From Treponema sp. (GTDB lineage Bacteria > Spirochaetota > Spirochaetia > Treponematales > Breznakiellaceae), in assembly GCA_020216655.1 (NCBI GenBank), contig JAIWNU010000120.1, forward strand, positions 1-18,670: 18,670 nt of DNA. Direction: 5' to 3'. Positions within the stretch are counted from its first letter, which is position 1, and each line of letters starts with the position of its first letter. Below, piece after piece: positions 1 to 18,538 of the stretch. The position numbers and the translations under genes were made by a program. Below the pieces are notes generated by a model. That model saw nothing but the letters and a program-made list of their open reading frames with translations, made no database searches and was not told the origin of the DNA.

Positions 1-1923
1 AATTGCAAAAGAATCAAAGACTCGGTGGGAAAAAGCTGGTATCCCGTCGGCATATACGATGGACCCTTCGGTACTAAAAGTACCTCCATATCCTGGTTCT
101 GTACCGTCCCGATTGTCCCGGTACCAGAATTGCGTGCCCCAATCGATGAGAGCTCCCGTCCTTTTAAGGTTTGCATTTATACTTCTAGGACTAGTACCTG
201 CTTCGACAGGATTAGTAACCGAAACAGAACCATTATAGTCTCTCGTCTTATTTCCGCTGTTCCATGCAACTTCGATTCCGGTCTCACCATTTATAAGTGA
301 TTGATACACATGGCTAGTAGTTTTTCCAGTCCCTGGAATCACCAATAAGGAAAGACTTGCCTGCGGTAACCAGTATCCCAAACGGTTATCAATAGCAAAG
401 GATGCCGAGAAGGTAGTTTCTTTCCCGAAGGGCATTGAAAGTCCGATGGCTGTACTAAAAGAGCCGGCATTGCCACTATTCGAACTATAGTCCCCCAGAA
501 GTGCTAAAGAAATACCAACCGGTGTAGCTTGAGCAATCTGAGCCGCCACTTTCCAGGAAGGAATTAAAGATGTAGTTGTGTTTATAATCTGGGGAGGCGA
601 AAAGCCAGAACTCATATACTGAAATGACAATCCGAATCGGGGGATGTAGGGCTGGTATGGCAAATTAAGGCGGTATTGTAAACTGCTATTATATGCGGGA
701 GTATAAATGAGTCCTCCATCATTATAACTAACTTTGATCGCCCCATCACCATAAAAATAACCGAGAAAAGTAGCCAATTTTAGGGATATGCCACCAAGTA
801 AAACTCCAAAGCCTCCCTGTATATTTACTCCCGCTTCAAGGGTATCCGTAATACCATATCTAAAGAACGCACTCCCGATTGGTGCTATCATATCATCAGT
901 TGTCATTCCCATTCCAAAGGCGAATCGGAAATCCTGTTGTGAGAGAAGTGCCTCCTCATAAGGAATACCTATATGCTGTTCTATAGGTGGTTTACCCTCT
1001 TCTTCTATTTTGATAACCACATTATTTAGCCCCGACGCTAGTGGTAAGTCTCCAATCCTATATCTTCCTGGCCCTACGGTTGTGTTTCTTATGGTAATTC
1101 CATTAACCGAAACAAGGATTTTAGCTGTATTATTTACCACTATAAAATCTGAATCTTTTAAAATTGAAGGTTTTCGCCTTTCTGTTATAGATGACTGATC
1201 TGGCAATAGTAATGACTCTTGGTTGGAACCGATTGCGATTCCGGCAACATTGAAACGTGATTGGAAACCTGTCTGAGGGAGATCTACGGTCCCGACGGAC
1301 AACCTTACGCCAATGTTGCGGAAATCATGAATGAGCCGTAGATTCCGCAATTCCGTTTTGACAGATTGGTCTAGAATAAAAGCTGTTTCTGCTTCACTTA
1401 CCCATCCGTAAATGTTTAGAGCCCCATCAATATTAAGAGAACCTATCATATAGGGTGGAAGTTCCGAGTTTTTTTTAATACCAAATACCACATTCCCATT
1501 CAGGAAAGCCGATACTTGTGCAGGTTTTAGAATCTGCGTCATTTTTAATTGTGGTTTCTCTTCAGACCCTAAAGATTTCTCTGTCATAAATTGTGGAGGT
1601 ATTTGAATGTGAACAGTCAATGATGCAGCATCAAATTGCGTGGGAAGTCCTAAAAAACTTAAATTCTCAAGTGTTAAGTAATCTGTTTTTATTTCTCCAA
1701 TGATGGCAAAATAGTGAGACGACAAATAAGGTCGAATAATATTCAAGACCTGCTTTGTCGGTAATGTAATTTCATTGCCTTCAAGCTGGCATTCTATATC
1801 TCCCTTTGGTATGCCATTAACCACAAGTGAGATAATAGCCCAATCGGATTGGGCAAAAACAGAACCATAACAGAGTATGAGATATATTGATAAAATATAA
1901 TAAAAACTTTTACCGCTCCGCAT
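1..1923 (-). CDS. Fimbrial outer-membrane usher, archaic/sigma type (3' end beyond window)
   Basis: The minus-strand frame is open from the ATG at 1923 to the window edge (641 codons, no stop), so the C-terminal part is missing. A signal peptide (MRSGKSF, then a hydrophobic stretch ending VFAQ) is followed by an N-terminal usher domain (IISLVVNGIP). The plug region carries the usher hallmark SVNGITIRNTTVGPGRYRIG plus DL, around residues 270-297. Beta-barrel-like sequence follows, and at 620-641 the segment GSIVYADG...VFDSFAI resembles the archaic/sigma usher signature preceding the C-terminal domains. Ushers form the outer-membrane pore that receives chaperone-subunit complexes and assembles the pilus. 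The start overlaps the chaperone stop by 14 nt (1910-1923), so the two are probably translationally coupled. A tip-subunit gene would be expected further left. The assignment to the usher family is firm; the archaic/sigma subtype is less certain. Confidence 0.87.
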   Translation of the reverse strand, partial: MRSGKSFYYILSIYLILCYGSVFAQSDWAIISLVVNGIPKGDIECQLEGNEITLPTKQVLNIIRPYLSSHYFAIIGEIKTDYLTLENLSFLGLPTQFDAASLTVHIQIPPQFMTEKSLGSEEKPQLKMTQILKPAQVSAFLNGNVVFGIKKNSELPPYMIGSLNIDGALNIYGWVSEAETAFILDQSVKTELRNLRLIHDFRNIGVRLSVGTVDLPQTGFQSRFNVAGIAIGSNQESLLLPDQSSITERRKPSILKDSDFIVVNNTAKILVSVNGITIRNTTVGPGRYRIGDLPLASGLNNVVIKIEEEGKPPIEQHIGIPYEEALLSQQDFRFAFGMGMTTDDMIAPIGSAFFRYGITDTLEAGVNIQGGFGVLLGGISLKLATFLGYFYGDGAIKVSYNDGGLIYTPAYNSSLQYRLNLPYQPYIPRFGLSFQYMSSGFSPPQIINTTTSLIPSWKVAAQIAQATPVGISLALLGDYSSNSGNAGSFSTAIGLSMPFGKETTFSASFAIDNRLGYWLPQASLSLLVIPGTGKTTSHVYQSLINGETGIEVAWNSGNKTRDYNGSVSVTNPVEAGTSPRSINANLKRTGALIDWGTQFWYRDNRDGTEPGYGGTFSTEGSIVYADGIPAFSHRVFDSFAI

Positions 1924-2668
1924 TGTATGTTACACGGCCTTCGTATTGTACCCCATTTTTAGCTTCAGGATAAGGAATAAAAAACTGCCGAGTCATCCCC
2001 GCAAGGATATTTTGGCCCTCTATAGCCGCAAGGTCTGCCGTATTCAAAACAAATTTCTTTTGCCCCTCTGAATAGATATCCAGACGTGTATCAACCAAAA
2101 TTTCATGGCAACCTCCGCTATTCTGTATTCGTACTATAAAACCTGGCATACCCTTTTCAGATGCCCCCACAACAGATTGAACAGCAATAGCTGCCGGTGA
2201 AGCTTTGGGAGGAACCACATACAGTGCCCCAACATATTTAAATAGCAGTGTCAGCGCAGAGCCTTGAGATTTCTCAAAATTTACTGGAACCTGTTCTGCT
2301 ATGATACGAAAAGCCTGTTCTTTTTCCCCTACAGTGCCACCACGCCATTGAACTTTAATTGACTGCTGGCTTTCAGGTTCTACCACGAATCGAGAGGGAT
2401 ATATAAGAAAAGTTGATTCTGGAATATCCTTGTTTGTCTCCTTTCCGTCCTCTGTCATTTCCCGGGTGGTAATACGAATTCTTATCGCTATTCTTTCTTT
2501 GCTTTCGTTTACCACCTTAAAAGTTGTAATGGTTCCTGTCCCAAAATCAGAAATGGCAACACTCATTGGTTCAAAAGAGAATGTATAACCAAGTAGAACA
2601 CTAGAAAAGAAGAGAACAAAGAAAAGCATCCCCCGTAGAGGGGGGATGCTTCGATGAAGGTATAGCAT
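1910..2668 (-). CDS. Periplasmic pilus-assembly chaperone (PapD/CsuC-like)
   Basis: A 252-residue protein with an N-terminal export signal (hydrophobic core at about 14-29) and a PapD-like two-immunoglobulin-domain pattern. The mature part begins FEPMSVAISDFG, and FKVVNES is the first-strand motif. Residues 90-130 hold the archaic-chaperone signatures FLIYPSRFVVEPES and AFRIIAEQVPV, followed by YVGALYVVPP. Such chaperones bind pilins in the periplasm by donor-strand complementation and deliver them to the usher. It sits between pilin and usher and overlaps the usher start by 14 nt. The ATG at 2668 has AGGGGG 8 nt upstream. An inner ATG at 2629 (residue 14, signal MLFFVLFFSS) is possible but would lie in a hairpin arm. 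The longer start supplies the basic signal-peptide n-region and is preferred. Confidence 0.88.
   Translation of the reverse strand: MLYLHRSIPPLRGMLFFVLFFSSVLLGYTFSFEPMSVAISDFGTGTITTFKVVNESKERIAIRIRITTREMTEDGKETNKDIPESTFLIYPSRFVVEPESQQSIKVQWRGGTVGEKEQAFRIIAEQVPVNFEKSQGSALTLLFKYVGALYVVPPKASPAAIAVQSVVGASEKGMPGFIVRIQNSGGCHEILVDTRLDIYSEGQKKFVLNTADLAAIEGQNILAGMTRQFFIPYPEAKNGVQYEGRVTYNAER
2624..2651 (-). terminator. Terminator-like hairpin over the chaperone start (candidate attenuator)
   Basis: On the minus strand, AAGCATCCCCC and GGGGGATGCTT form a perfect 11-bp stem around a 6-nt loop, followed by the T-rich run TTCTTTGTTCT. This has the form of an intrinsic terminator, placed 45 nt past the pilin stop and inside codons 6-15 of the chaperone. 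Partial termination here would yield more pilin mRNA than chaperone/usher mRNA. The C-run of the stem could alternatively pair with the AGGGGG ribosome-binding site at 2677-2682. The function is inferred; the stem is seen. Confidence 0.6.
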
Positions 2669-2695
2669 CAGGCGAACCCCCTGATTAAGTTTCGG

Positions 2696-3202
2696 TTAGT
2701 TTGCGGTAATGGTAAAGGTTAATGTGTCTGAATAGGTATCTTCGTTGGGGAACAAACTTGAACCGTTAAAATTTAATACCACATCTTTTACTGTACCAGT
2801 GGCACTCGTTTTTACGGCTGAAGTGGACACTGTCGCTACTCCGCTGCTAAATGCTGCTGTAGTCCCGCCATATGAAATTGAATACGGTAGGGTATCCGTA
2901 TTGTCCGAAGCAGCTCCCTTAAAGAAAGGTGCATCAGTACCAGCTGTTTGAGCATTAGCAGAACTTACGGTAACTGTATAACCTGCCCGTTTATTACTGA
3001 TTTCTACCGCGGTGGCAATCTTCATGGATAGATTCTGAGTAAGATCTAGACTGTTAATGCCAGCTTCAGGAGTAACAATAATCTTTAAAATTGCAGGAAT
3101 AGTTCCCTGTAAAGTGATAGACGCAGTCGTCTGTGCTGCTGCCCCCATAGCAAGCCCCACGGTTAGAATAACAATAGCTGAAAGTACCTTTAATTGTTTC
3201 AT
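2696..3202 (-). CDS. Pilin / major fimbrial subunit (chaperone-usher type)
   Basis: A 168-residue exported protein: signal peptide MKQLKVLSAIVILTVGLAMG ending AAA|Q, then a Thr/Ser/Ala-rich all-beta protein ending in the alternating strand DTYSDTLTFTITAN, typical of chaperone-usher subunits. The early strand TTASITLQGTIPAI fits a donor-strand N-terminus. It has no cysteines, so it lacks the disulfide common in classical pilins. It is the first gene of the operon, 27 nt before the chaperone, which is where a major subunit usually lies. The ATG at 3202 is chosen because GGAGG sits 6 nt upstream; an in-frame TTG at 3214 would place that ribosome site inside the gene. I do not recognise a specific named family; the pilin role rests on export signal, fold pattern and operon position. 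Confidence 0.77.
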   Translation of the reverse strand: MKQLKVLSAIVILTVGLAMGAAAQTTASITLQGTIPAILKIIVTPEAGINSLDLTQNLSMKIATAVEISNKRAGYTVTVSSANAQTAGTDAPFFKGAASDNTDTLPYSISYGGTTAAFSSGVATVSTSAVKTSATGTVKDVVLNFNGSSLFPNEDTYSDTLTFTITAN

Positions 3203-3238
3203 AACAACCTCCAATAATGTATTGACTTGTATTTATTT

Positions 3239-3754: not shown

Positions 3755-5605
3755 GTGTCGCAAACAAAAAAAGAAATTTACAGCATCCAGAAAAACTCGT
3801 GGCCGCCCTATGGCCGTATCGGCCTCTTGTGGAACGCATTAGGCAAACACCGGTTCCTGTACTTGGCGGGACTCTTGGCCCTGCTGTTTGAAGTGTTTTT
3901 TACTTTTATTTCCCCCATGATCGTAAAGATCACCATAGACAGCATTATCGGAACGGCGCCCCTTGTGTTACGGCTTCCATTGAACATCCTTATAGACTTA
4001 AGCGCCTATGACTCATGGAGACCCTGGCTCAGATCCCATCTGTGGGTTTCGGGGCTTGCGTTTGCGTCCATGATACTGATGCAGGCCCTGTTTAGTTTTA
4101 TCGCCTCACTTTGTATCAACATTTCTGCTGAAGAAAGTGCAAAGCGGCTTCGGGACAGGCTCTATCGGCATATCCAGTACCTACCCTATGAAACGCTGCT
4201 TAGAGCCCAGACCGGTGATTGGCTCCAGCGATGCACCTCCGATGTGGATACGGTGCGCCGGTTTTTAGCCTTTGAATTTGTGGAGCTTTTCAGGACCCTG
4301 GCCCTGGTCAGCTTTGCCTTTCCCATCATGCTTTCCTTGAGCCCCCATCTTACACTCTGGGGAAGCCTCGTGATGCCGGTCATTATTCTCTTTTCGTTTT
4401 TCTTTCAGAGAATAGTGGAACGCTTATTTCTCGTGGCCGATGAACGGGAGGGTATCCTTTCGGGCATTGTTCAGGAAAATGTAACCGGTATCCGGGTTGT
4501 TCGGGCCTTCGCCCGGCAGCAGTATGAGATTGAACGCTTTGCAAGGGCCAACAGCAGCCTGCGGGACCAGGTGTACAAATTGATATCCTGGCTCGCCTTT
4601 TACTGGGGTTTTTCAAGTTTCCTTGGGCTGCTCCAAATCGCCTTCCTGCTGGGCGCCAGTTTGCACCTCTTTGCGGGTGGAACCATTACCTTGGGCCTTT
4701 TAGTGCTGTTTTTAACCTATGAACAGCAGGTTCTTTGGCCGGTCAGGCAGTTCGGGCGGATTCTTGCGGATACGGGTAAAACAAAAGTGGCCCTTGGCCG
4801 TATTGCCGAATTGCTCGTCCTGGCAAAAGAAGAGGACCTGGTAAAGGATAATGTTCATCATAAAATTGACTGGGGCAAGGCTTCCATTGAGTTCCGGAAT
4901 GTATCCTTTACCTATCCGGATGGGACTGAGGTCCTTAAGGACGTTTCCTTTACGGTAAATCCCGGCGAGCGGCTCGCCATAGTCGGCCCTACGGGGAGCG
5001 GAAAATCTACGCTGGTCCATTTGCTTCTCCGGTTCTACGAACCAAGTGCGGGGGAAATCTTAATCGGCGGCCGCGATCTGCGGAGCATTCCGAAGGAAGA
5101 ACTCAGGAGAAATGTTTCTATCGTACTCCAGGACAGTTTCCTGTTTGGGAAAACTGTCAAGGAAAATATTGTAATAGGCCAGGATGCAATCGATGAAAAG
5201 CAGCTCGTAAAGGCTGCTGAAGTGGCGGCCTTTCATCAGGTTGCCCTCGGTTTTCAGGATGGCTATGAAACAATGGTCGGAGAACGGGGGGTAACCCTCT
5301 CAGGAGGCCAGCGCCAGCGGCTTGCCCTTGCCCGGGCTTTGCTGCGGGATGCTCCCATCCTTGTTCTGGATGACAGCCTGAGCGCGGTAGACACTGAGAC
5401 AGACCGGCTTATCCGGGAATCTATCGGAGAAGGAAATTCGACATCAATCATCATTGCCCACCGGCTTACCACCCTTGCCGAAGCGGACCAGATACTTGTT
5501 TTGGAAGCGGGCCGGGTGACCGGTCTGGGCAATCATGAAACACTGGCCGCGCAGCCGGGCTTTTACCGGCGGCTCGCAGAATTGCAGAGCGCTTTTTCGC
5601 TTTAA
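3755..5605 (+). CDS. ABC exporter half-transporter, degenerate-site subunit
   Basis: A 616-residue fusion of a six-helix exporter transmembrane domain (about 30-340) and an ABC ATPase domain (about 375-610). Visible motifs: Walker A GPTGSGKST at 411-419, Q-loop Gln459, canonical signature LSGGQ at 515-519, Walker B ILVLDD at 535-540 and H-loop His569. The catalytic glutamate after Walker B is replaced by Asp540, as in TM287-type and BmrC-type subunits, so this subunit supplies the weak nucleotide site of a heterodimer. The partner is the next gene, 23 nt downstream. The GTG start at 3755 is supported by GGGAGG upstream. Heterodimeric exporters of this family usually extrude drugs or lipophilic compounds; the substrate here is unknown. 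Confidence 0.9.
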   Translation: MSQTKKEIYSIQKNSWPPYGRIGLLWNALGKHRFLYLAGLLALLFEVFFTFISPMIVKITIDSIIGTAPLVLRLPLNILIDLSAYDSWRPWLRSHLWVSGLAFASMILMQALFSFIASLCINISAEESAKRLRDRLYRHIQYLPYETLLRAQTGDWLQRCTSDVDTVRRFLAFEFVELFRTLALVSFAFPIMLSLSPHLTLWGSLVMPVIILFSFFFQRIVERLFLVADEREGILSGIVQENVTGIRVVRAFARQQYEIERFARANSSLRDQVYKLISWLAFYWGFSSFLGLLQIAFLLGASLHLFAGGTITLGLLVLFLTYEQQVLWPVRQFGRILADTGKTKVALGRIAELLVLAKEEDLVKDNVHHKIDWGKASIEFRNVSFTYPDGTEVLKDVSFTVNPGERLAIVGPTGSGKSTLVHLLLRFYEPSAGEILIGGRDLRSIPKEELRRNVSIVLQDSFLFGKTVKENIVIGQDAIDEKQLVKAAEVAAFHQVALGFQDGYETMVGERGVTLSGGQRQRLALARALLRDAPILVLDDSLSAVDTETDRLIRESIGEGNSTSIIIAHRLTTLAEADQILVLEAGRVTGLGNHETLAAQPGFYRRLAELQSAFSL

Positions 5606-5628
5606 ATTCGCTCTAATAAGGATTACCT

Positions 5629-7446
5629 ATGTCAGAACATAATAAATTTGAAGAAAAAGAATATAGCTCCCGCTTTGATGTGGATGTGTGGAAAAAGATC
5701 TTCCGTTTCGGAAAATTCTTGTATCCCGTCATCGGGGTCCTTGTGGTCATTATGATCGGTGTGGCCATACTGGATGGAATATTTCCCCAGATGACCCGCT
5801 ATGCCATCGATACCCTTATTCCTGATCTTGGAAAACCGGGATCGGAAGGACGCATCGCAAACTTTGTAGTTCGCTACGGCTTATTAGCCCTTTTACAGGG
5901 CTTTAATGTGTGGGCCCTCATCATGGTGGCCGGTATTATCGAAGTCCGGCTCTGCCATACCCTGCGAGACAAGGCATTCCGCCGGCTTCAAGAGTTGAGT
6001 TTTTCCTACTATGACCGAACCCCGGCGGGGTGGATTATAGCCCGGATGACATCGGATGCCCAGAAACTAGGGGATACCATAGCCTGGGGTATTGTGGACC
6101 TCGTGTGGGGAACAACCATGATGATAACCATTGTCATCTTCATGATTGTCATGAACCCCCTGCTGGCCGCAATCACCCTTGTGTTTGTGCCTCCGCTTTT
6201 GCTGGTAACCTTCTGGTTCCAAAAGAGAATTCTTGCGACCCAGCGGAAATCCCGGAAGGCCAATTCAATCGTTACCGGGTTCTTTAATGAAGGGCTCCAG
6301 GGGGCCCGTACTTCCAAGGCCCTTGGTATAGAAGAACATAATTGCAGAGACTTTGCGCACAAGAGTACTACCCTGCGAGACTATGCAATCCGGGCGGCAC
6401 GACTGTCCGCCTTGTATCTTCCGATGGTTATATTCCTTGCAGCGACAGGTGCGGCCCTCGCACTGGGGGCCGGCGGCAGTTTTCTCCTTAAGGGAAGCAT
6501 CAGTGTAGGAACCCTCGTGGCTTTTGTGAATTATGCCATGATGTTTTTTGACCCCGCCCGGGAAGTTGCGCGGGTTCTTTCCGAATTCCAAGCGGCCCAG
6601 GCCAGCGCTGAGCGGCTTGTGGGGCTTATCGAGACAGAGCCTGAAATCATCGATCGTCCTGGCGCTGCGGCTTCATCTGCGGTAGTCGGCAACCTGGTTC
6701 TGGACCGTGTATCCTTCCGGTATGGGAAAGAGGGGCCCTGGATTTTTAAGGATTTCTCTTTGACAATCCCTGCAGGACAAACCCTTGCGGTGGTCGGTGA
6801 GACGGGCTGCGGAAAATCTACCCTGGTAAACCTCATGTGCCGGTTTTATGAACCAGAAGAAGGATTCATTTTGATAGACGGCCAGGACTATCGGGAACGG
6901 ACCCAGCACTGGCTCCACAGTCAGCTGGGCTATGTGCTACAGACTCCGCTCCTCTTTTCCGGTACCGTAAAGGACAATATCCGTTACGGCAGACTGGACG
7001 CGACGGATGAAGAAATATACCGGGCTGCCCGGGATGCTAATGCCCTTGGCTTTATAGAACGGCTTGAAAAGGGCTTTGATACTCCGGTCGGAGAAGGGGG
7101 CGCGCTCCTCTCGGTGGGGCAGAAACAGCTTATCAGCCTTGCCCGGGCTCTTGTAGCGGACCCCCGTATCATTGTTCTGGATGAAGCTACCAGTTCGGTG
7201 GATACCGAGACGGAGGTGCTCATACAGCACGCCATAGAACGGCTGCTTGCGGGGCGGACCAGTATCGTCATTGCCCACCGGCTTTCTACCATTCGGTCTG
7301 CGGACCGCATTATTTTGCTGGACAAGGGCAGGATTGTAGAAGATGGGAGCCATGAGGAACTCATGGCCCGCCGTGGGGCCTACTGGAAGCTCTATACCCA
7401 GCAATTCCTGGAAGAAGAAGCCTTTCTTGAGGTTTCAGGAGCCTGA
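5629..7446 (+). CDS. ABC exporter half-transporter, catalytically complete subunit
   Basis: A 605-residue inner-membrane exporter subunit with an N-terminal transmembrane domain (about 30-320) and a C-terminal ATPase domain. Walker A is GETGCGKST at 390-398, Q-loop Gln438, Walker B IIVLDE at 514-519 with the catalytic Glu519, and H-loop His550. Its signature is LSVGQ (494-498) instead of LSGGQ. Since the preceding protein lacks the Walker B glutamate but has LSGGQ, the two defects fall in the same composite ATP site. This is the standard asymmetric arrangement of TM287/288 and BmrCD-like exporters. It follows the partner gene after 23 nt with its own ribosome site (AAGGA), and a TetR-family gene follows 40 nt later. 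Confidence 0.9.
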   Translation: MSEHNKFEEKEYSSRFDVDVWKKIFRFGKFLYPVIGVLVVIMIGVAILDGIFPQMTRYAIDTLIPDLGKPGSEGRIANFVVRYGLLALLQGFNVWALIMVAGIIEVRLCHTLRDKAFRRLQELSFSYYDRTPAGWIIARMTSDAQKLGDTIAWGIVDLVWGTTMMITIVIFMIVMNPLLAAITLVFVPPLLLVTFWFQKRILATQRKSRKANSIVTGFFNEGLQGARTSKALGIEEHNCRDFAHKSTTLRDYAIRAARLSALYLPMVIFLAATGAALALGAGGSFLLKGSISVGTLVAFVNYAMMFFDPAREVARVLSEFQAAQASAERLVGLIETEPEIIDRPGAAASSAVVGNLVLDRVSFRYGKEGPWIFKDFSLTIPAGQTLAVVGETGCGKSTLVNLMCRFYEPEEGFILIDGQDYRERTQHWLHSQLGYVLQTPLLFSGTVKDNIRYGRLDATDEEIYRAARDANALGFIERLEKGFDTPVGEGGALLSVGQKQLISLARALVADPRIIVLDEATSSVDTETEVLIQHAIERLLAGRTSIVIAHRLSTIRSADRIILLDKGRIVEDGSHEELMARRGAYWKLYTQQFLEEEAFLEVSGA

Positions 7447-15329: not shown

Positions 15330-16163
15330 TTAATGGGACTGCTTAGGCTTAATTATGTAAAAATACCGCACTGAAATGCCAAGTCTTTCTAATGGGTTTG
15401 CCATATCATGGCCCAGTTCAATACCGAAGCTGTGATTGCCTTCGGTGTACCAGAGTCCGCCGCTCAGTAGGGCACGATAAAGCAATGTATCGGATGCCCA
15501 CTGATTTCCCGAGCGAGGGGGTAGCGTAATGGACTGGGATAGGCTTATTTGAAGAGCGAGCCAGCGGTTCATTAACATAGTAGTTCCGCTTGTGATACCA
15601 ACTGACAAGGGCTCCCAATAGAAATCCTCATGAAGGCTGCCGGGGATGCTGGTGCCAAGCCGGATGCCTAAGTCCAGGCTCACCGGGTCTGTGTAGCGGG
15701 TGTACTGCCAAGCTAGATCAAGCTGATGCAGTATCCCACCGGTTTGGATGGTGTTATGCTGGGTTGATTCCATAACGGATATACCTGAGGGAGCGGTCCA
15801 GTTTATGCCGATGCGCTGCTGCCCCCGGTTGCTATGGCTTATCCACGAAACGGCGAAATTAAAGTCTCCTTGAGCAAGGATGACAGGTGTGCTATCGGCG
15901 ACAGTGAGGGGCAGTCTCAGGTAAATCGGGAATGATAGAGCAGCGTACCACCTGTTGTGAATGAGAATATCCGCCGAGGCTTGTAAAGAAAGCAGGGCTT
16001 CCCGGTCTCCCTGAAGCAACGGAAGGAGCGAAAACTCAGTTCCCAAGCTTGTCTGCCAGGGCTTTTTATCCTGCACTGCAAGCCGGTTATGCTCAGATTC
16101 CTGGGCAAGAAGTACGTTGTTGATGAGCAGTACACAAAGTAAAATCCTTAAGCTTCTGTGCAT
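15330..16163 (-). CDS. Predicted outer-membrane beta-barrel protein
   Basis: A 277-residue exported protein with signal peptide (MHRSLRILLCVLLINNVLLAQ). The rest consists of alternating hydrophobic/polar strands with many Tyr/Trp and short turns, for example WYAALSFPIYLRLPL, QLDLAWQYTRYTD and LGISVRYFYIIKP near the end, as in transporter-like outer-membrane barrels. I do not recognise a named family. Its start overlaps the stop of the C39 peptidase gene (TAATG), and its ribosome site GGAGG lies within the peptidase's last codons, so production is coupled. A barrel paired with an exported C39 protease recalls FapF with FapD of the Pseudomonas Fap system. The inferred role is export of a peptide or protein across the outer membrane. 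It ends 61 nt upstream of the purine riboswitch. Confidence 0.65.
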   Translation of the reverse strand: MHRSLRILLCVLLINNVLLAQESEHNRLAVQDKKPWQTSLGTEFSLLPLLQGDREALLSLQASADILIHNRWYAALSFPIYLRLPLTVADSTPVILAQGDFNFAVSWISHSNRGQQRIGINWTAPSGISVMESTQHNTIQTGGILHQLDLAWQYTRYTDPVSLDLGIRLGTSIPGSLHEDFYWEPLSVGITSGTTMLMNRWLALQISLSQSITLPPRSGNQWASDTLLYRALLSGGLWYTEGNHSFGIELGHDMANPLERLGISVRYFYIIKPKQSH

Positions 16164-16753
16164 TAGCGACCTCCATATTGTATCAGAGACAGCCTTTGTA
16201 AGGTTTCTCGCTTTTCCAGGGTGTCCTGTACGATACCAGTGAGTGTTGTTGCATTTTTCTGTTGATTCGACCGTTGTACTAAAAGGGCATAGCCCTGCCA
16301 GCGAGAAAGAAGATCATCCCGAGAAAGCCAATATATTCCTTCCGCAGGATCGGCGATAACAAGATATGTATCCTCCGCGGTAAGACACAAAACAAAGTGT
16401 CCTGCCTGGTCTGCGAAATGGAGAATAATTGGTGCATATGTCTTTGTAGCTTTTACGAGCTGTTCATAGGTAAAACGGAAGGCCTTAGAGACAAAACCAT
16501 GCTGGGCAAGAAGGTTCTGCATATCCTTAAAGGAGATTGTGTAGTTCTTTCCCTGTGTTCGTTGAAGGGAGATCCATTCAGTAACCAAAACCTCTTCTGA
16601 CACAGGATAGTCCCAATACCGTGTTAGTAGGTCTGAAAGGACCGAAAGCCCGCAGGATGTATCATAGCCCTGTTCTGCAACCTGTGCAAAGCGAAGGGCT
16701 TCTGCGCTTTGCATTGTTTGTACTAGTAATAGGAACGAAAGGATTTCCGCCAT
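16163..16753 (-). CDS. Exported C39-family cysteine peptidase
   Basis: A 196-residue protein with an N-terminal hydrophobic segment (about 3-18), weakly basic and therefore an atypical signal or anchor. It then carries the C39 fold: oxyanion Gln28 and Cys34 in EQGYDTSCGLSVLSDLL, His119 in AGHFVLCL and Asp135 in IADPAEG. C39 peptidases cut after double-glycine leader motifs. Here the domain stands alone instead of being fused to an ABC transporter, and should act in or facing the periplasm. The divergent neighbour at 16869 encodes a secreted protein with such a motif. The ATG at 16753 is set by GGAGG 4 nt upstream; an in-frame GTG at 16801 would run through the ribosome site. It overlaps the barrel gene by one base. 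Confidence 0.8.
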   Translation of the reverse strand: MAEILSFLLLVQTMQSAEALRFAQVAEQGYDTSCGLSVLSDLLTRYWDYPVSEEVLVTEWISLQRTQGKNYTISFKDMQNLLAQHGFVSKAFRFTYEQLVKATKTYAPIILHFADQAGHFVLCLTAEDTYLVIADPAEGIYWLSRDDLLSRWQGYALLVQRSNQQKNATTLTGIVQDTLEKRETLQRLSLIQYGGR

Positions 16754-16859
16754 AACACCTCCAGAATGACAAAAAAATAATTTTTGACTTGACAGTAACA
16801 CGGGGGGGGTATAATCAAGCCATCCTCTGGCCAGAAGTACAAAATGTATGTTATGGCGG
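16747..16859. repeat. 11-bp inverted repeat framing the divergent control region
   Basis: CCGCCATAACA (16747-16757) is the exact reverse complement of TGTTATGGCGG (16849-16859). The arms are 91 bp apart and enclose the promoter region of both divergent genes. The left arm contains the peptidase start codon; the right arm lies 9 nt upstream of the precursor start. Each of the two mRNAs therefore carries the same 11-nt motif in its translation-initiation zone. A palindrome TCTGGCCAGA sits between the arms at 16826-16835. Confidence 0.7.
16789..16815 (+). promoter_or_regulatory. Consensus promoter with poly-G8 spacer (probable phase-variable promoter)
   Basis: TTGACA (16789-16794) and TATAAT (16810-16815) both match the sigma70 consensus perfectly, but are only 15 nt apart. 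The last eight spacer bases are all G (16802-16809). Slippage by two bases would give the optimal 17-nt spacer. Homopolymers placed this way switch promoters in Neisseria, and poly-G tracts upstream of tpr genes modulate their transcription in Treponema pallidum. The predicted start near 16822 gives a leader of about 47 nt before the precursor gene. Confidence 0.75.
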
Positions 16860-16868
16860 TATTAAGAA

Positions 16869-17303
16869 ATGAAAAAGCTCATTGCATCTTTACTGGTCCT
16901 GTTTTTAGGTGCTAGTATGGTGATGGCAGAGGTGTCGGCGTCTGGAGCGGAATCCCAACAGGCTGTGGCGGTTTCTACTGCGGATTTTGCTGATGTAGAA
17001 GGGGTTGAGATCGGGGAACTAGAAAGTGGTGAGGTGAGAGGGGGAAAACTGCCGGACAGGGAAGGTTCTGTGATGTATGGTTCAGGTGTAAAAAAAGAGG
17101 TTATGAACGCTGATTATGTTCCTACCAAATCCCAAGTTAAAGAATCTATCAATGAGATAAAAAAAATAACACCTGCTGCTACAGATGTTGCAGTCGCTGC
17201 AATTGGCTTGTATTCTATTAGTCATCCAGTACCTAGAGTAATACTATATACAGCGGGTGCTTATTCGTTGGGTAGAGCATTACAACAATGTAGTACTTAT
17301 TAA
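16869..17303 (+). CDS. Secreted precursor protein with a double-glycine motif
   Basis: A 144-residue protein of no recognised family. Residues 1-20 are a clear Sec signal peptide ending VMA. An acidic segment (about 39-56) leads to EVRGG at 55-59. Counting back from Gly59, Ile48, Glu52 and Val56 occupy the -12, -8 and -4 positions of the double-glycine leader consensus; the usual Leu at -7 is Ser. The C-terminal 85 residues begin KLPDREG, contain a basic amphipathic stretch (KSQVKESINEIKKI) and a hydrophobic Ala/Ile/Tyr-rich tail, and end QQCSTY with a single cysteine. The adjacent C39 peptidase is the obvious processing enzyme. The mature product could be a toxin, signal or matrix protein; nothing decides between them. 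It is expressed from the poly-G promoter at 16789. Confidence 0.7.
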   Translation: MKKLIASLLVLFLGASMVMAEVSASGAESQQAVAVSTADFADVEGVEIGELESGEVRGGKLPDREGSVMYGSGVKKEVMNADYVPTKSQVKESINEIKKITPAATDVAVAAIGLYSISHPVPRVILYTAGAYSLGRALQQCSTY

Positions 17304-17309
17304 AAGAAA

Positions 17310-17345
17310 AAGCATCTCAAAATTAAATCTAATTTTGAGATGCTT
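17310..17345. terminator. 16-bp hairpin terminator after the precursor gene
   Basis: AAGCATCTCAAAATTA (17310-17325) pairs perfectly with TAATTTTGAGATGCTT (17330-17345) around the loop AATC, 6 nt past the stop codon. On the plus strand it is followed by only TGTTGGTTTG-type sequence. The T-rich tail (TTTTCTTTT) is on the minus-strand side, although no minus-strand gene is seen upstream. It should separate the precursor from the downstream membrane genes. Confidence 0.7.
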
Positions 17346-17390
17346 GTTGGTTTGTAAATTGTTATCATATTGAAGGAATTGGTTACTAAA

Positions 17391-18164
17391 ATGAATGAAA
17401 AACTACATCTTCTTTTCCCTAGAGAACTATTATGGCTCGTGTTTATACCTTTCATTATTATTTTTTTCATACAGAAATATAACCCCATACAGGTTATTAA
17501 TGAAGCAATCTTTGCTTTTCTTTCAGCTTATACTATTATTATTATATATCAGACAACGAAGTTGATAAAAAAAACAATATTTAAGAAACTAAACATTGTT
17601 TTTACATGGCTAATTAGTGGCATTGACGCTATTCTTAATTATAAAATTATTCAGAGTGGTTCTGTTAATGAAAACAGTAATTTTTTATTTGTTCAAATCA
17701 TTAATGATCAAAGTTTATTTTGGAATATTCTACTTGTTTTCTTGTTTAAGGTGTCCGTTATGACTATTGTGTTTATTTGTCTTGAACGGGCCATATATAA
17801 TAATGCACGATTTTGTCAAGGTGATACTTTTGGGGAATTATGTGCATATCCGAAAATAATAGATAAGAATATTGCATTATATCATTATGCACGCTCTCTA
17901 TTTTTTGTAAAGGATGAAAAGAGGTTTTTCATTGCAGAACCAAATATATTACAAGTTTATTACTATGTATTTTATAAGCCATTGTTTATAGTGATAGTTA
18001 TGATGATCTTTGTTTTTTTTAACAACCTGTATTTCTTTTTTAGTAAGATGAAAGTTGCAACTTCTGTATCTTTGTATATTTTTGCTGCACTGTTGATGAG
18101 TGTTGTAATTCTGCCTGTGATTTATTTTTTACAATTAAGTCGTCGTAGTAAAAACATTGGTTAG
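17391..18164 (+). CDS. AT-rich multi-pass membrane protein of unknown function
   Basis: A 257-residue hydrophobic protein with about six predicted membrane spans: near 14-28, 40-56, 68-86, 110-135, 195-215 and 223-245. The middle part (an Asp in GIDAILNY, then ENSNFLF, then a span with an internal Lys in VFLFKVSVMTIVF) loosely resembles the small DUF5658-type membrane domain. That is a pattern impression, not a match. Base composition is much richer in A/T than the purine operon and exporter genes. The ATG at 17391 is the first ATG of the frame, with AAGGA 14 nt upstream (long spacing); TTG codons at 17370 and 17379 are alternatives. It lies downstream of the secreted precursor and could serve its export or self-protection, which is inference from position only. 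Confidence 0.65.
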   Translation: MNEKLHLLFPRELLWLVFIPFIIIFFIQKYNPIQVINEAIFAFLSAYTIIIIYQTTKLIKKTIFKKLNIVFTWLISGIDAILNYKIIQSGSVNENSNFLFVQIINDQSLFWNILLVFLFKVSVMTIVFICLERAIYNNARFCQGDTFGELCAYPKIIDKNIALYHYARSLFFVKDEKRFFIAEPNILQVYYYVFYKPLFIVIVMMIFVFFNNLYFFFSKMKVATSVSLYIFAALLMSVVILPVIYFLQLSRRSKNIG

Positions 18165-18241: not shown

Positions 18242-18538
18242 ATGCGAATAGTATTTATTATTTTAATATATTTAATAACATACTTTGTTTATGTATTGAT
18301 AAAGATTATTTTTGAATATAAAAATGTGGAAATAGTGGTTGTTTTAAAAAGGTATTTAGTCAATTTAATAAAAAATATTCCAATAATTATTGGATGTGCG
18401 ATAGGTGGTGCGGCCGCTATATTTTTTTGTTCGCTGGTAAAATGGGAATGTAGTATAGAAACAATTTATCCTCTCTATTTTACGACATTGTTTGGGAATC
18501 TTTTTCTTTCAATTATAAACTCGAAATCTAAGGAATGA
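18242..18538 (+). CDS. Small AT-rich membrane protein, about three spans
   Basis: A 98-residue protein with hydrophobic segments at about 3-25, 44-64 (IPIIIGCAIGGAAAIFFCSL, Gly/Ala-rich and able to pack tightly) and 72-92. It ends in a polar tail NSKSKE. No family is recognised. The ATG at 18242 has GGGG about 5 nt upstream. It lies 77 nt after the larger membrane protein and 2 nt before the next ORF, so the last two are co-transcribed. Small membrane proteins beside a secreted peptide gene are often immunity proteins, but nothing in the sequence proves this. Confidence 0.6.
   Translation: MRIVFIILIYLITYFVYVLIKIIFEYKNVEIVVVLKRYLVNLIKNIPIIIGCAIGGAAAIFFCSLVKWECSIETIYPLYFTTLFGNLFLSIINSKSKE

Follow-up and report, generated by a model that had tools for sequence, protein, structure and literature searches.

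Two described systems come closest to the locus considered here. In the Pseudomonas Fap system, a periplasmic stand-alone C39 peptidase (FapD) goes together with a 12-stranded outer-membrane barrel (FapF), and in the Neisseria nap island (NapP, NapF, NapA/B/C, NapI) a C39 protease, a FapF homologue, double-glycine (GG) peptides, an immunity-like gene and a poly-G tract are found together, as far as the available text goes (PMC11798529). We describe a locus of similar parts in an 18,670-nucleotide (nt) stretch of Treponema sp. DNA (GenBank contig JAIWNU010000120.1; the whole stretch is called the window below): genes for a stand-alone C39 peptidase, an outer-membrane barrel and a divergent precursor with a Sec signal peptide and a C39-type leader. 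With a probability of about 0.6, these genes and their neighbours form an export cassette for exchangeable bacteriocin-like proteins, which would combine Sec, a periplasmic C39 cut, a FapF-like barrel, a toxin-immunity module and poly-G switching.

By comparison with these reports, the protease-pore pair is already known from Fap, and GG peptides with an immunity-like gene from nap. A preliminary description of this DNA, made from the letters alone, had taken the arrangement to be a distinct one. It is less new than that, because the nap island has the same pairing of C39 protease, FapF homologue and GG peptides (PMC11798529, available text); this likeness is one of kinds of part, compared by description. 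The double leader (Sec plus GG) with swappable cargo is not described in the available parts of the Fap, nap and T. denticola literature compared. A literature search found Fap, Nap and T. denticola ATP-binding cassette (ABC) exporter work and, among the matches listed, no spirochaete C39-barrel system by title or opening of the abstract.

The spirochaete cassette differs from Fap in its Sec-plus-GG-type leaders, its swappable cargo, its membrane-protein neighbours and its poly-G promoter, and also in that an N-terminal coiled coil or plug is missing from the barrel and other fap-like genes were not recognised by eye. Fap proteins are reported, in the available text, to be without canonical C39 sequences, and the natural target of FapD to be unclear (PMC5557850). 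Here a C39 target is written in the sequence: a C39-type leader follows a Sec signal, and cargo is exchanged where the cut would be expected, which makes the question of the target directly testable. Naps are short cationic peptides of 16-36 amino acids (aa) when mature, whereas the window cargo has 85 aa and stands behind a Sec-type signal; the main text of the nap paper holds 0 occurrences of "signal peptide" or "Sec" and proposes that a holin-like protein provides passage across the inner membrane. The nap poly-G lies in a regulator gene and the spirochaete poly-G in the cargo promoter, and module swapping is not described for nap in the available text (PMC11798529).

Class II bacteriocins and microcins with peptidase-containing ABC transporters (PCATs), including Treponema denticola TepA/TepB, share the leader pattern [LI]-x3-E-x3-[VI]-x-GG, a partly glycine-rich cargo and immunity-type neighbours, but the spirochaete C39 comes without a fused ABC exporter and a Sec signal stands ahead of the GG leader. 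Bacteriocin-type genes of T. denticola are tentatively assigned to ABC exporters in the available texts (PMC4947327, PMC11879956). Polymorphic toxin systems likewise have a constant trafficking part, an exchangeable end and a following candidate immunity gene; here, in contrast, the constant part would be a cleavable 59-residue double leader, and the secretion routes that the available text of PMC3482391 names do not include this one.

The protease, the barrel and the two-part leader

The genes that carry the argument are the following.

15330..16163, reverse strand: predicted outer-membrane beta-barrel, 277 aa, FapF-like fold (AlphaFold2 model, 12 strands)
16163..16753, reverse strand: stand-alone C39 double-glycine peptidase, 196 aa (Pfam Peptidase_C39, E 8.7e-18)
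16869..17045, forward strand: leader of the precursor (residues 1-59), a Sec signal peptide followed by a C39-type leader (I48-x3-E52-x3-V56-x-G58-G59)
17046..17303, forward strand: bacteriocin-like cargo, residues 60-144, 85 aa, guanine-plus-cytosine (GC) content 38.4%, 56% identical to the P0170 cargo

The C39 gene starts with an ATG at 16753, preceded three bases upstream by GGAGGT, within an open reading frame (ORF) that extends to a GTG at 16801. Residues Q28, C34, H119 and D135, singled out in the preliminary description, were recovered with this start, since their numbering suits the 196-aa ATG form rather than the extended GTG-start one. None of the four varies in an alignment of 11 C39 sequences. 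Homologous sequences formed 117 clusters, 107 of them of at least 160 aa; C34, H119 and D135 are present in all 107 and Q28 in 106. The C39 stop and the barrel start share one base (TAATG, 16165-16161), in agreement with the coupling reported before. Of the ten sequences with solved structures that the C39 profile matched, nine come from ABC exporters of the bacteriocin type, whole or as the peptidase domain; the window C39 lacks such a fusion. The NCBIfam FapD equivalog NF058616 matched it at 46.9 bits (E 2e-12), under the cut-off of 330 bits. A weak match of 38.6 bits was obtained with the NCBIfam profile of FilB, which we take to be an Acinetobacter protein. By its family name FilB is a C39-family peptidase of a putative pilus system (Fil), but the match is far under the family cut-off of 475 bits and the likeness covers FilB alone.

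The barrel matched nothing in Pfam or NCBIfam. As modelled by AlphaFold2 (pLDDT 88, 12 strands), it has the FapF-type 12-stranded fold: the 14 best PDB matches in Foldseek are all FapF, and in a VIA comparison FapF came out on top, with a COG4313 channel tied, among the matches listed. A sequence profile of the barrel against PDB had FapF as its sole match, which was not significant (E 0.37-0.51). The outer-membrane barrel of the preliminary description is thus upheld as a prediction. The N-terminal coiled coil or plug of FapF was not predicted, as the model shows no helix from the end of the signal helix (2-19) to the first strand, at 36.

The precursor (144 aa) is divergent from the C39/barrel pair and carries the Sec signal and the I-x3-E-x3-V-x-GG motif just where they had been described. 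A search with the window leader matched eight proteins, two of them from the window genome itself, and M1, K2, A20, F40, V43, V56 and G58 are invariant across nine leaders. We counted a strict leader motif, [LIVMF]x3[ED]x3[VI]xG[GA], and a loose version among the 117 signal-like ORFs within 3.5 kb of 22 stand-alone C39 loci. The strict motif was present in five and the loose one in 12, against means of 0.27 (maximum 3) and 2.2 (maximum 9) in 1000 shuffles of the same segments; the loci are related to one another and the counts are therefore not independent, nine of the 12 matches coming from loci whose leaders had already been aligned as related and L082, L083 and L084 being more independent. 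Farther off in the same loci the motif was found in 0/54 (strict) and 1/54 (loose) ORFs (Fisher one-sided p 0.044 for the loose motif). The regular expression can strike an earlier site within the same leader first, as in the window and L004.

A strict double-glycine leader (with E or D) is present in the window, L021, L023, L082 and L083, and other loci show G-x-G variants. At the -1 position the window, L021, L023, P0167, P0169, P0170 and L029 have G; L004, L024, L025, L026, L027, L028 and P0171 have E, K, T or A, each followed by G, and L093 has E followed by A.

The window precursor had no Bacteriocin_IIc match in Pfam. The L004 precursor, with a glycine-zipper cargo, reached 17.5 bits with this family (cut-off 27.1). 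Larger cargo was seen behind Sec-plus-leader sequences in L082 (7236-7823), L083 (7937-8518) and L084 (5262-5879), with about 140-155 aa past the leader and Cys/His enzyme-like motifs by eye; these domains matched nothing above cut-off in Pfam.

Occurrence in the window genome and its relatives

The window is contig 132 of a 2.66-Mb draft (251 contigs, 89.6% complete). This genome holds a second full cassette, L004, with a C39 that is 82% identical. A third, broken C39-barrel copy (L005, 7375-8244) lies beside a transposase-like fragment, with no precursor seen. A search with the single C39 sequence had matches in 9/145 family genomes, and the C39 profile in 12/195 family genomes (two weak) and 27/392 phylum genomes. 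By ORF length, the C39 is stand-alone in 14 of these 27, of which 13 are within the class of the window and the 14th (G185, L087) is decayed; we therefore state the distribution as class-wide and not phylum-wide. The other 13 have weaker matches only (up to about 50 bits); in 11 of these the open frame has at least 700 aa, the length of ABC exporters, and two are of ambiguous type (G385, 477 aa; G492, 262 aa). The C39 homologues carrying an organism name, like the seven loci that have one, come from Treponema, Termitinemataceae and other Spirochaetota, and we place the window genome there accordingly.

The C39-barrel pair occurs in several families of the class, often beside Sec-plus-GG-type precursors. 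The three-gene neighbourhood, a survey of which the preliminary description had proposed, was examined in 22 C39 loci (decayed L005, L029, L032 and L087 and ABC-type L030 excluded). A homologous barrel adjoins the C39 in 17 of them (nine by phmmer, seven by profile and L028 by position and alignment); L031, L084 and L092 have an exported-looking ORF in its place with no hidden Markov model match, and L086 and L089 have none. On a larger scale, 24 of 47 barrel clusters agree in longest-contig size with one of the 117 C39 clusters. A Sec-plus-leader precursor lies within 3.5 kb of the C39 in 14/22 loci (12 by regular expression; L025 and L086 by eye).

Some loci have other parts. In L092 (3032-8311) and L031 (4256-8750) a variant operon consists of an ABC transporter gene followed by the C39 and a barrel-like ORF, with a PqqD-like protein (E 1.2e-7) also present in L092. 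A small lipoprotein-like ORF (C, five or six residues, WYP) adjoins the C39 or barrel gene in distant groups (L025 1263-1646, L026 4985-5347, L027 6818-7177, L028 9271-9657, L082 5278-5703, L085 5632-6006) and was not seen in the window group; it is perhaps an extra export part. The C39-ABC type locus L030 (3055-9529, G027) has an internal transposase-like ORF and two proteins with leaders ending in VNGG; in one of them an N-D-C-D-[IV]-W-A stretch was recognised by eye that the L082 cargo has too. Further leader-bearing cargo genes (L123-L129) were seen in genomes G001, G117, G528, G568 and G065, and L128 (G568) has a barrel.

Exchange of cargo, neighbouring genes and the poly-G promoter

Leader and cargo identities were computed for 36 precursor pairs. 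The window and L004 leaders are 69% identical with unrelated cargo (z -0.9), while the window and P0170 share 48% of the leader and 56% of the cargo (z 51), and L004 and L024 share 53% and 80% (z 41). Unrelated cargo also follows leaders that are 84% (L023/P0167) and 77% (L021/P0169) identical. As leader and cargo identities are uncoupled, the cargo appears to be a swappable module; its boundary lies at V-x-G-x, which is G58-G59 in the window.

The GC content of leader, cargo and neighbour gene falls from 51 through 38 to 27.5% in the window, and is 49/42/29% in L024, 56/37/30% in L023, 52/48/27% in L021 and 47/47/28% in L004, where it sets apart the neighbour gene only and not the cargo. The window leader (50.8%) is close to contig bases 1-15000 (52%). 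From this drop, cargo and neighbour gene seem to have been imported behind a resident leader. The mosaic, the GC steps and the neighbours together give the layout of a polymorphic toxin, with a constant N-terminal trafficking part and an exchangeable C-terminal part with its downstream gene. Past the cargo lie:

17310..17345, no strand assigned: 16-pair stem-loop between the cargo gene and the next gene
17370..18164, forward strand: tm1, membrane protein, 264 aa, five hydrophobic segments by hydropathy, GC 27.5%, candidate immunity gene
18242..18538, forward strand: tm2, small membrane protein, 98 aa, two hydrophobic segments by hydropathy, GC 25.6%, possible second immunity gene

The best Pfam match of tm1 is DUF5652 (E 0.043, under the cut-off). 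Assignment of tm1 to a known protease family was rejected, with no Pfam match above cut-off and a model of no use. Its homologues were found in G027 only among 195 family genomes, where they lie in L024 and L133, and no homologue of tm2 was found among the cassette loci compared. Elsewhere the neighbour genes are membrane proteins or lipoproteins that vary by locus: CPBP/Rce1 in L022 and L092 (E 1.3e-22, 1e-10), signal peptidase II-like proteins in L026 and twice in L028 (E 3e-10 to 1e-15), YhfC in L031 (E 1e-46), an aspartyl protease in L023 (E 7e-6), small transmembrane proteins in L004, L021 and L123, and a lipoprotein by eye in L083. A CPBP-type protein has been discussed as a possible bacteriocin self-immunity factor, in the available text of PMC8692603. 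The small transmembrane protein of L004 has a weak match in L024 (39% over 36 aa, E 9e-5, within the loci compared), about 100 bases past the same cargo type, as expected of a toxin-immunity pair.

Between the C39 and precursor genes the window has the layout TTGACA-7 nt-poly(G)-TATAAT.

16789..16815, forward strand: promoter-like site of the precursor gene (TTGACA 16789-16794, 15-nt spacer, TATAAT 16810-16815)
16802..16809, forward strand: poly-G tract of 8 G within the promoter spacer

Five of the six close loci have both promoter boxes: L023 and L024 with 13 G and a 20-nt spacer, L022 with 13 G, a 21-nt spacer and TACAAT, and L021 with an interrupted poly-G and a 23-nt spacer, besides the window; the exception is L004, with 9 G and the -10 box lost. 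Each length comes from one assembled sequence per locus, and in drafts it could be an assembly error; the L024 genome is a single contig. A scan of five genomes for TTGACNNNANCAC-G7 had six matches, all of them at the six close cassettes, and G097, a genome with no C39 match in the profile search, had none. This confinement to cassettes suggests phase variation of the precursor gene by poly-G. In T. pallidum tp0126, a poly-G at the same place sets the spacer, with 17 nt the best, according to the available text of PMC7864442.

Missing from the preliminary description were the second locus, the exchangeable cargo, the probable immunity genes and the poly-G in the promoter.

Proposed route and its alternatives

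In the export cassette that we propose, the precursor would cross the inner membrane by Sec and lose its signal peptide near A20. A stand-alone C39 in the periplasm would recognise the second leader (residues 21-59) and cut after G58-G59, and the freed 85-aa cargo would pass out by the FapF-like barrel. The fixed part of the cassette would consist of the C39 and barrel genes, and the leader would be the fixed docking part of the cargo gene, with the cargo and the following membrane-protein gene forming a swappable toxin-immunity module of foreign base composition. Slippage of the poly-G between the -35 and -10 boxes probably turns cargo transcription on and off. If the cargo is antibacterial, spirochaetes would have a compact bacteriocin release route of one protease and one pore, and the leader profile would be a tool for finding new antibacterial proteins.

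Several observations weigh against this proposal. Strict GG is replaced by G-[E/K/T/A], mostly followed by G, in six of nine leaders of the nine-leader alignment, and by G-[E/K/T/A] in four of 11 leaders of a second alignment that has five rows in common with the first. No intact leader-bearing precursor was seen in eight of the 22 C39 loci: that of L022 is truncated, L089 runs off its contig, L088 extends 0.75 kb beyond the barrel, and none was seen in L031, L085, L090, L091 and L092. Full-length leaders also occur in G001, G117, G528 and G568, drafts of 66-94% completeness with no C39 detected at E 1e-8, and in G065 the leader gene (L129) lies on a second contig, away from its C39. The promoter spacers, 15 nt in the window against 20-23 in relatives, are none of them the optimal 17, and a simple promoter scan restricted to 16-18 nt did not list the window promoter. 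As for tm1, its structure model has a pLDDT of 42, and it is not bound to one cargo type, the L024 homologue adjoining an L004-type cargo. An orphan homologue (L133, 6226-7023, reverse strand), a candidate stand-alone immunity gene, has no cassette seen beside it, and no leader remnant was found near it when one was looked for. Throughout, the evidence is comparative, and the activity of all cassette members is inferred from it.

The Sec, GG-trimming and barrel route of the preliminary description is accordingly upheld in part, because many leaders are not strictly GG; the kept leaders, the boundary at G58-G59 and the FapF-like barrel speak for it. That precursor homologues might lack the GG or be unlinked to C39 genes had been named there as the danger to the idea, and linkage is mostly preserved while strict GG is not.

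The place of the protease bears on the first alternative, in which the parts are adjacent but share no route, the C39 acting elsewhere or in the cytoplasm, the barrel being a porin and the cargo staying in the periplasm or membrane. The N-terminus of the window-group C39 (MAEILSFLLLVQTMQSAEALRF) is a short hydrophobic stretch with no K or R before the hydrophobic part, which also weighs against the proposed cassette, and its export is for this reason reached by inference; clearer C39 signal sequences were seen by eye in the relatives L083, L031 and L092. Nevertheless, with the leader site behind a Sec signal, a cytoplasmic cut would strand the cargo, and a periplasmic C39 is therefore favoured; the window C39 is likely exported. 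The overlap of the C39 and barrel genes and their conserved pairing across loci and barrel clusters further argue against mere adjacency, which we consider unlikely, though it fares best among the alternatives.

A slightly poorer case can be made for Fap-like export of a structural or surface protein (a fibre, adhesin or matrix subunit), with the C39 activating the pore or trimming the subunit. The barrel fold and the protease resemble FapF and FapD, and periplasmic FapD is required for secretion in Fap (PMC5557850, available text). However, neither amyloid-type repeats nor FapA/B/C/E-like genes were recognised at the loci, by eye and with no profile search for them, and cargo that is diverse and is swapped as one module with an AT-rich membrane-protein gene would more usually be expected of a toxin-immunity cassette than of a fibre subunit; for these two reasons the amyloid reading is not preferred. 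Equally improbable to us is a Nap-like, self-directed role, in which the cargo acts on the producer population (programmed lysis or signalling) and tm1 and tm2 are modulators. Parts of these kinds, with a poly-G (in napR), also make up the nap island, whose peptides promoted autolysis and did not kill competitors (PMC11798529, available text), and some distant-group cargo is as short as about 30 aa (L026, L086). Against this, conflict between strains accounts better for the diversity of cargo and its exchange across species than a conserved self function does, and the window cargo is well above the mature Nap lengths. A PCAT is ruled out, as the C39 is stand-alone, and export of the cargo by the two ABC half-transporter genes at 3755-7446 was rejected, since they lie 7.9 kb off with purine-synthesis genes (by eye) between.

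Returning to the export cassette, we extend it only tentatively, at somewhat less than even odds, to a system of polymorphic bacteriocin or small-toxin secretion over several families of the spirochaete class. Such a system would use a double ticket (Sec and C39 leader), periplasmic processing with no ABC exporter, a plug-less FapF-type pore and cargo-immunity modules that are swapped among strains and joined at the GG codons, with a poly-G switch in the window group, and would include the larger L082, L083 and L084 cargo, which has enzyme-like motifs by eye. If true, the route would serve small protein toxins in general and not be confined to peptides.

Elsewhere in the window, two ORFs at 1910-3214 on the reverse strand look, by eye, like a periplasmic chaperone of the pilus type (252 aa) and a small, exported, pilin-like protein (172 aa).

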